DNA from: Cellulomonas sp. Leaf334
GTDB taxonomy: Bacteria; Actinomycetota; Actinomycetes; Actinomycetales; Cellulomonadaceae
NCBI RefSeq assembly: GCF_001424195.1
Contig: NZ_LMOO01000001.1
Location: forward strand, 1,656,812-1,720,811
Length of the DNA stretch: 64,000 nucleotides
Direction: 5' to 3'
The position numbers and the translations under genes were made by a program. Below are positions 24,664 through 26,080 of this stretch, piece by piece. Position 1 is the first letter of the stretch. Each line of letters starts with the position of its first letter. A model generated the notes under the pieces. It worked only from the letters and a program-made list of their open reading frames with translations, had not been told where the DNA came from and made no database searches.

Positions 24664-25461
24664 TCAGTCGGCGCTGTGCACCGGGCGCACGCGCTCGCCC
24701 AGCTCGGCCAGCTGCGCCTTCATCTCCCCGACCGTGAGGGTGTGCTCGACGCGCGGCGAGTAGAGCATCGAGCTCGTGATCGCGCCCGTGGCGCCGATCC
24801 GGAACGCGTCCGCCACGTGGCTGACCAGCCCCGCTCCGCCCGAGGCGATGACCGGCAGCGAGACCGCCTCGGTGATCTGCTGCGTGATGTCGAGGTCGTA
24901 GCCGGAGCCTGTCCCATCGCGGTCGATGCTGTTCACGACGATCTCGCCCGCGCCGAGGTCCTGCCCTCGCTTCGCCCACTCGACCGCGTCCATGCCGGTG
25001 TAGGTGCGCGCACCGTCGATCGCGATCTCGTACCCGCTGGGGATCTTCGCGGTCTTCTCCACGCGCTTGACCTGCATGCTCAGCACGATGCACTGCCGGC
25101 CGAACTCGACCGACCCCTGCGTGATGATCTGCGGGTTGCGCACGGCCATGGAGTCGATGCTGATCTTCTCCGCACCCGCGCGCAGGACCTCGTGCATGTC
25201 CTCGAGGTGACGGATGCCGCCCCCGACCGTCAGAGGCACGAACGTGCGGTGCGCCGCCCTGCGGATCATGGCGAGGTCGATCTGGCGCTTCTGGGCGCTG
25301 GCCATGATGTCGTAGATGACGATCTCGTCGACGTCCTCGTGGTAGAGCCGGTCCGCCAGCTCGGCCGGGTCCCCCACGTCGATGTTGTCCTGGAACTGCT
25401 GTGCCTTGGTGACCCGGCCGTCCTTGACGTCGAAGCACGCGATCAGCCGGTTAGCGAGCAT
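24664..25461 (-). CDS. Divergent HisF-like (beta/alpha)8 barrel, catalytic Asp130 replaced
   Basis: This 265-residue protein aligns end to end with HisF, the cyclase subunit of imidazole glycerol phosphate synthase. The first catalytic aspartate (CFDVKDGRV, Asp11 by Thermotoga numbering) is kept, as are the phosphate loops VGGGI, DRDGTGSGYD and ASGGAG. The second catalytic aspartate is not: the family's VAIDAKR segment reads LSMQVKR here, so Asp130 is Gln. The nearby NTAA segment is DSMA. With no other his genes nearby, a role other than histidine synthesis is likely. HisF2-like proteins in surface-sugar amidino modification are a precedent, but no WbpG-type partner is in the window. The gene overlaps the upstream hisH-like stop by 11 nt. 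Confidence 0.8.
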   Translation of the reverse strand: MLANRLIACFDVKDGRVTKAQQFQDNIDVGDPAELADRLYHEDVDEIVIYDIMASAQKRQIDLAMIRRAAHRTFVPLTVGGGIRHLEDMHEVLRAGAEKISIDSMAVRNPQIITQGSVEFGRQCIVLSMQVKRVEKTAKIPSGYEIAIDGARTYTGMDAVEWAKRGQDLGAGEIVVNSIDRDGTGSGYDLDITQQITEAVSLPVIASGGAGLVSHVADAFRIGATGAITSSMLYSPRVEHTLTVGEMKAQLAELGERVRPVHSAD

Positions 25462-26080
25462 CGTTCACGTCCTTGATGTCGAGGTCGCAGAACGCCTTCA
25501 GCACCTGGAGCCCGGCGCGCGCGCTCTTCTCGGTGTGGAACTGCGTCGCCATGATGTTCTTGTGCGCCACGGCGGCGGCGAACTCCTGGCCGTACGTCGT
25601 CACGCCGACCAGCGCGGAATCGTCGGTCGGCTTTGCGTAGAAGGAATTCACGAAGTAATAGAATCCTCCCGGCGTGAATGACCGGGAGAACGGGTGGTCG
25701 CCACGCACCTCGACATTGTTCCAGCCCATGTGCGGCACGCGGACCTGGGAGTTGTCGAACTCGTGGACGCTGCCCTTGATCCAGCCGAGGCACTCGACGT
25801 CGCCCTCGGCCGAGTGCTCGAACAGCACCTGCAGCCCGACGCACACTCCGAGAAAGCCCTGGCCATCGCCGATGACCTTCTCGTTCAGGTGCTCGATCCA
25901 GCCCTCCTGGGCCAGTGACTCCATCGTCACTCCCGCGGCGCCGACCCCCGGCAGGATGTACTTGTCGACCTCGTCGCACTCACCCGGCTTGGCCACGAGC
26001 GCGTGCGGGACACCGAGGTGTTCGAGCGCATAGGAAATGCTCTGCGAATTACCGGTGCGGTAGTCGATGATCCCGATCAC
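25451..26080 (-). CDS. HisH-like glutamine amidotransferase partnering the divergent HisF
   Basis: This 209-residue class I glutaminase has the nucleophile in GVCVGLQVLFE and the His-Glu pair in ATQFHTEKSA. The PGVGAAG oxyanion region and MGWN are present, so glutaminase activity should be intact. It would pass ammonia to the HisF-like barrel encoded next. Parts of the gene are less GC-rich and use more A/T-ending codons than neighbours (around 25630-25680 and 26020-26060), a possible sign of transfer. The canonical his operon is absent around it. Confidence 0.82.
   Translation of the reverse strand: MIGIIDYRTGNSQSISYALEHLGVPHALVAKPGECDEVDKYILPGVGAAGVTMESLAQEGWIEHLNEKVIGDGQGFLGVCVGLQVLFEHSAEGDVECLGWIKGSVHEFDNSQVRVPHMGWNNVEVRGDHPFSRSFTPGGFYYFVNSFYAKPTDDSALVGVTTYGQEFAAAVAHKNIMATQFHTEKSARAGLQVLKAFCDLDIKDVNDAR

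Follow-up and report, generated by a model that had tools for sequence, protein, structure and literature searches.

The window, a stretch of 64,000 nucleotides from Cellulomonas sp. Leaf334, carries two overlapping genes on its minus strand. The first, hisF (24664..25461; ATG start, 265 aa), encodes a predicted cyclase subunit of imidazole glycerol phosphate (IGP) synthase (IGPS) of a divergent Asp103/Gln130 class, and the second, hisH (25451..26080; GTG start, 209 aa), encodes the predicted glutaminase subunit; the overlap is 11 nt. Reading the residues of HisH bore out the original prediction that its Cys, His and Glu are kept, with HTE replacing the usual HPE. Parts of hisH had also been described as compositionally foreign. 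Its third-position G+C does deviate from that of the nine other window genes measured, though mildly (0.886 vs 0.944–0.978). As had been stated, no other histidine gene is nearby: none of the other his genes that we located in this genome falls in the window.

A phmmer alignment of the window HisF to HisF-LUCA (4evz) is ungapped from residue 1 to beyond residue 130, and T. maritima numbering is therefore valid for the window protein. In this numbering, Asp11 (25429..25431) and Lys19 are kept, Asn103 is changed to Asp (25153..25155) and Asp130 to Gln (25072..25074), all three codons lying on the minus strand and being counted from the ATG at 25461; the earlier assignments of Asp to position 11 and Gln to position 130 are thereby upheld. 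An acid/amide pair on adjacent barrel strands is swapped, Asn103/Asp130 having become Asp103/Gln130. The altered DSMA segment had been seen before; the Asn103 to Asp change inside it had been overlooked. An Asp130 present at a shifted position had been named as a finding that would overturn the earlier reading; the HisF-LUCA alignment revealed no displaced Asp130 within strand 5. The acid stands instead at the former amide neighbor, residue 103, which AF2 secondary structure places immediately after strand 4, with residue 130 within strand 5.

Two papers name Asp11 and Asp130 as catalytic residues in T. maritima HisF (PMC5919458, PMC11350729), one of them describing Asp11 as the general acid and Asp130 as the general base; by this assignment, replacing Asp130 with Gln should abolish activity in the absence of some compensating change. 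With Asp11 present and Gln at position 130, the window HisF departs from the catalytic pair by which an IGP synthase is recognized, and its residues mark it as an apparent variant of this enzyme, not a canonical member. In profile searches, TIGR00735 (hisF) is the best-scoring NCBIfam model for the window HisF, at 277 bits against a curated cut-off of 294.55, followed by the models for WbuZ (TIGR03572; 229 bits, cut-off 299.7) and HisF2 (NF038364; 202 bits, cut-off 310). Because the TIGR00735 cut-off was set on known sequences, a score below it lowers the standing of the protein as a curated equivalog member, not the case for its working as an IGPS. The window HisH, at 200 bits against TIGR01855, lies above the cut-off of 105.4. 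An AF2 model of the window HisF (pLDDT 93.3) returned HisF chains and HisF-derived designs as its top VIA structure matches, from Z 37.3 downwards, among them HisF-LUCA (Z 37.3, rmsd 1.6 over 248) and T. maritima HisF 1THF (Z 34.5). The ProFAR isomerase HisA/PriA has a barrel superfamily in common with HisF; the window's genome possesses a separate PriA in its his operon (hisA-trpF, 361 bits).

Relatives were retrieved by scanning genome_contigs with motifs from HisF residues 3–11 and 18–26, neither of which includes position 103 or 130, and 53 related loci were found. Asp11, Asp103, Ser104 and Gln130 are present in 51/51 loci readable at both positions, the partial L093 and L096 being left out, and this invariance places the Asp103/Gln130 combination far from chance. 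All 55 swap rows of our alignment (one a duplicate) possess Asp103 and Gln130, whereas Asn103/Asp130 occurs in all 61 canonical HisF rows, a narrow sample comprising 59 rows from Actinomycetota and two from MAGs of other groups, with two duplicates. Six rows fall outside both groups, namely two WbuZ-type (L138, L139), three divergent (L140, L141, L143) and one partial sequence (L162); Asp130 is present in each of the six, whereas residue 103 is Asn, Ser or Gly. The swap class shares with canonical IGPS the HisF fold, Asp11, Lys19, Asp51, a HisH partner with Cys/His/Glu and, judged by gene content, the same pathway step. Beyond positions 103 and 130, the two differ in loop 1, where Thr18, Ala20 and Asn26 of the swap class face Val, Gly and Leu of canonical HisF, and in C-terminal residues; the identity between one swap copy (L045) and canonical HisFs is about 40–50%.

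The HisH partners of the swap class retain Cys/His/Glu in 53 of 54 loci, the remaining one being partial. Between the catalytic His and Glu, all 54 carry Ala, Thr, Ile, Val, Leu, Cys or Met (Thr in the window) and never Pro, unlike canonical HisH; the non-Pro residue appears to be a second signature of the class. Could the pair be a pseudogene, or an artefact of sequencing or alignment? The third-position G+C of hisH, below that of its neighbors, would be in keeping with this, but conservation has already refuted it and we accord it practically no probability: the frames are open, identity is 89–100% in nine Cellulomonas records and 58–70% in other loci, the active-site residues are invariant across related loci, and no gap falls at 103 or 130.

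By record title, the hosts of the swap pair belong to four phyla: Actinomycetota (Cellulomonas, Streptomyces, Streptoalloteichus, Acidimicrobiia and others), Bacillota, Planctomycetota and Spirochaetota, with the proviso that many are MAGs whose taxonomic labels may be wrong and whose completeness is unknown. A record titled as a Bifidobacterium breve MAG (L061) carries a HisF that groups tightly with Acidimicrobiia HisF in the tree, and is probably misbinned. The class is rare in the phylum sampled: two of 396 genomes of the phylum scored at the swap level (456.7 and 472.1 bits) and the next at 299.3. A scan of viral_contigs detected no relative of the pair.

A tree was computed without columns 103 and 130 from 73 rows kept after hand thinning (43 of the 55 swap rows, 24 of the 61 canonical rows and the six set-apart rows). 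The 43 swap rows lie on one side of a branch with SH-aLRT 95, and the suggestion that the Gln130 form might make a clade is thereby supported. One branch further down (SH-aLRT 100), the swap clade is joined by L162, a HisF of the genome G562 that has the unswapped Asn103/Asp130 and is a possible pre-swap relative; L162 is a long, partial row, and its position in the tree is therefore unsure. The L162 HisF adjoins hisH between carA-like and carB-like frames, which were recognized by eye, in a stretch with masked bases and low G+C (0.40).

Given that the pair had been called an orphan, with canonical hisH and hisF to be sought elsewhere, the gene content of the host bears directly on its role. 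The window's genome is 99.99% complete in 12 contigs. TIGR00735 matched only the window HisF and a HisA in this genome, and the window HisH is the only TIGR01855 match above cut-off. The his genes looked for besides these are present: hisI at C1:39505, hisG at C1:354006 with hisE, recognized by eye from its translation, just upstream, and hisB, hisA, hisC and hisD, the last detected by tblastn, on C6. The pair is thus the sole HisH/HisF found in a genome that has hisG, E, I, A, B, C and D, and the label of orphan is not supported. The original prediction had conceded that it would be wrong if this were the only HisH/HisF of a histidine prototroph; the sole pair is what we observed, and the host, by its his gene content, may be such a prototroph. 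The named Cellulomonas records with the pair likewise possess no other HisF (9/9). Across the sample of the family, canonical HisF above cut-off is present in 114 of 121 genomes. Of the remaining seven, two (the window's genome and G020) carry the swap form; in the other five, HisF is fragmentary or missing. Four of the latter are 77–89% complete, and the fifth, G067, is 99% complete with a split gene. In G067, the canonical hisF lies in two overlapping pieces (G067:C1:812649-813409), from a frameshift or a sequencing error. One genome, G180 (89% complete), gave no HisH match.

The same question was put to the hosts of the clade, counted as 50 genomes after three of the 53 loci were left out. 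A second HisF is absent in 37 and present in 13, and the swap HisF is the only IGPS-type HisF in 39 (the 37 together with G130 and G154, whose second copy is WbuZ-type), counts to be read with the caution that many hosts are MAGs of unknown completeness from which a second hisF could be missing. IGP dehydratase consumes IGP, the IGPS product; it is encoded in 38 of the 39 sole-copy hosts, the exception being G133, and also in the one-contig genome G218, which has the swap form. Judged from this gene content, histidine synthesis, should it take place, would rely on the swap HisF in 39 of the 50 clade hosts. In a Bacillota MAG (L128), hisZ-hisG-hisD-hisB-hisA-hisIE are consecutive, and neither hisH nor hisF is part of the series. 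Another HisF above the hisF cut-off is present in 11/50 hosts; five of these were read, and all have Asp11 and Asp130.

The Cellulomonas genomes appear to show a displacement in progress. At the canonical hisF site of three congeners, flanking blastn blocks lie 827, 830 and 903 bp apart, and the matching blocks of the window's genome (about 74–75% identical) lie 53, 49 and 47 bp apart; tblastn found no significant hisF remnant at the old site in the window's genome. The native hisF is deleted from its ancestral site in this genome, the one Cellulomonas with the pair in which the site was compared. The native hisH, by contrast, persists in the window's genome as an open, hisH-like frame that lacks the Cys codon; it lies in the his operon, flanked by hisB and hisA (L008, 10309-11022 on C6, outside the window). 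In the six Cellulomonas with the pair for which this his-operon HisH was read (L008 and L151-L155), Gly or Asp replaces the catalytic Cys in all and Arg replaces the His in four. These proteins score 37–76 bits against about 190–207 for intact HisH in the same genus sample, and in all six are still about 49–55% identical to intact HisH; perhaps they are decaying, or have been reused.

A model for the pair emerges in which it constitutes an imidazole glycerol phosphate synthase of divergent type that took the place of the native enzyme, an explanation that we hold with considerable confidence. That the pair makes IGP in vivo is highly probable. HisH would release ammonia from glutamine, and HisF would use this ammonia to turn PRFAR into IGP and AICAR, the IGP feeding HisB. 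Historically, a distinct HisF/HisH class would have displaced the native genes, the canonical hisF being deleted and the his-operon hisH losing its glutaminase residues. At the active site, Asp103 would most likely do the acid/base work of Asp130 together with the kept Asp11; the carboxylate would have shifted to the neighboring strand in exchange for the amide, and the pairing of Asp11 with a second acid would be kept in a new geometry. We lean, on the residue pattern, towards Asp103 having taken over from Asp130. For the fuller proposition, that of a second natural IGPS class in which a carboxylate named as essential migrated from strand 5 to strand 4 while the amide was exchanged to match, hisHF spread between phyla and displaced the canonical enzyme, and other copies were recruited into a histidine-like specialised pathway equipped with HisA-like and phosphoribosyltransferase proteins of its own, the chances seem to us evenly balanced.

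Two other accounts need to be weighed. The pair may be an IGPS in which Asp103 is no substitute, Gln130 sufficing while water or some other kept residue, for example Asp11 or Asp51, carries the proton step, and Asp103 doing no more than keeping up a hydrogen-bond pair with position 130. The swap keeps one acid and one amide, as expected of a paired contact, and in the divergent HisFs L141 and L143 residue 103 is Ser or Gly although Asp130 is retained, which demonstrates that position 103 can vary; against this, the invariance of Asp103 in 51/51 readable loci from distant species suggests more than a contact role. We regard this account as a minority possibility, albeit a serious one, and it bears on the part assigned to Asp103 alone, not on the confidence placed in an IGPS arising by displacement. 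Far less probable, in our view, is the proposal made originally, an ammonia-channelling module for a non-histidine acceptor akin to HisH2/HisF2 with WbpG, in an organism that would be an IGPS-less histidine auxotroph. The proposal draws on the missing Asp130, named as essential, on the coexistence of another HisF above cut-off in 11 of the 50 hosts, and on pairs on a Streptomyces plasmid and in a Lachnospiraceae MAG that sit among phosphoribosyltransferase, HisA-like, DegT aminotransferase and HAD genes. It is opposed by IGP dehydratase, which would otherwise be substrateless and yet is kept in 38 of the 39 hosts with the swap HisF as only IGPS-type HisF, and by the pair being the sole HisH/HisF found in the window's genome. 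No common acceptor gene emerges either: conserved neighbors had been envisaged for the clade, but besides the HisF and HisH clusters no neighbor cluster occurs in more than 13 of the 53 loci, and a conserved acceptor beside the pair was rejected as a candidate. The neighbor gene finder makes false calls at high G+C, and weight is given only to frames that a family search bore out and to residues that tblastn verified.

The acetamidino-sugar family HisF2/WbuZ/AglZ (TIGR03572, NF038364), which works with HisH2 and WbpG/WbuX, likewise presents a HisF/HisH pair outside the his operon. The statement that a WbpG partner is lacking held good, as TIGR03573 (WbpG/WbuX) gave 0 matches in the window's genome at E 0.001, a result that itself speaks against the ammonia module. 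The active sites do not bear the analogy out. In the two WbuZ-type HisFs encountered in this analysis (L138 and L139, the second copies in G130 and G154), Asp11 is replaced by Leu and Asp130 is retained, the reverse of the window HisF; this pattern may hold for the WbuZ family as a whole. These two copies also miss the WbuZ and AglZ/HisF2 cut-offs, by less than the window HisF does. Membership of the window HisF in the HisF2/WbuZ family was rejected on its scores below both cut-offs, the absence of a WbuX match and the opposite residue change. We judge the pair to be a genuine, widely distributed variant of a known enzyme rather than an ammonia module serving some new acceptor.

Among TIM-barrel enzymes, HisF is a reference case. 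What is surprising in our analysis is that a residue exchange is conserved in lineages where we see no alternative IGPS; bacteria relying on a HisF that lacks Asp130 and has a new Asp one strand away would offer a natural case of active-site residue migration. Our searches of the open-licence PMC literature turned up no report of a Gln130 or Asp103 HisF. There is a consequence for annotation as well. The TIGR00735 cut-off is reached, barely, by one of the 50 swap-type rows (G151, 294.9 bits); the other 49 fall below it, and tools based on this model could mistake prototrophs for auxotrophs. GapMind, for one, defines hisF by TIGR00735 or a curated term (PMC7311316).

In the 11 hosts with another HisF above cut-off, comprising four Streptomyces, Streptoalloteichus, a Desulfosporosinus and one MAG each from Lachnospiraceae, Spirochaetes, planctomycetes, Eggerthellales and Actinobacteria, the swap pair may serve a non-histidine role. 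On a plasmid of Streptomyces sp. NBC_01462 (L040, 19342-29910), the pair adjoins a HisA-like protein, a HAD hydrolase, a methyltransferase and a DegT aminotransferase, along with two phosphoribosyltransferase-like proteins, one of them a weak match below the Pfam cut-off. In a Lachnospiraceae MAG (L060, 5278-18991), the pair is preceded by genes for an AMP-ligase, a carrier protein and a dehydrogenase and followed by genes for HisA-like, DegT, HAD and phosphoribosyltransferase proteins. Such neighborhoods could, from their gene content, represent a specialised pathway patterned after the first reactions of histidine synthesis. Six loci from Oscillospiraceae, Eggerthellales and planctomycete MAGs (L064, L067, L070, L072, L080 and L088) have a member of a GuaA-like cluster close to the pair; visual inspection identified it as GuaA in just two of them, L067 and L088, and the called frame is only 319–378 aa long in four of the six.
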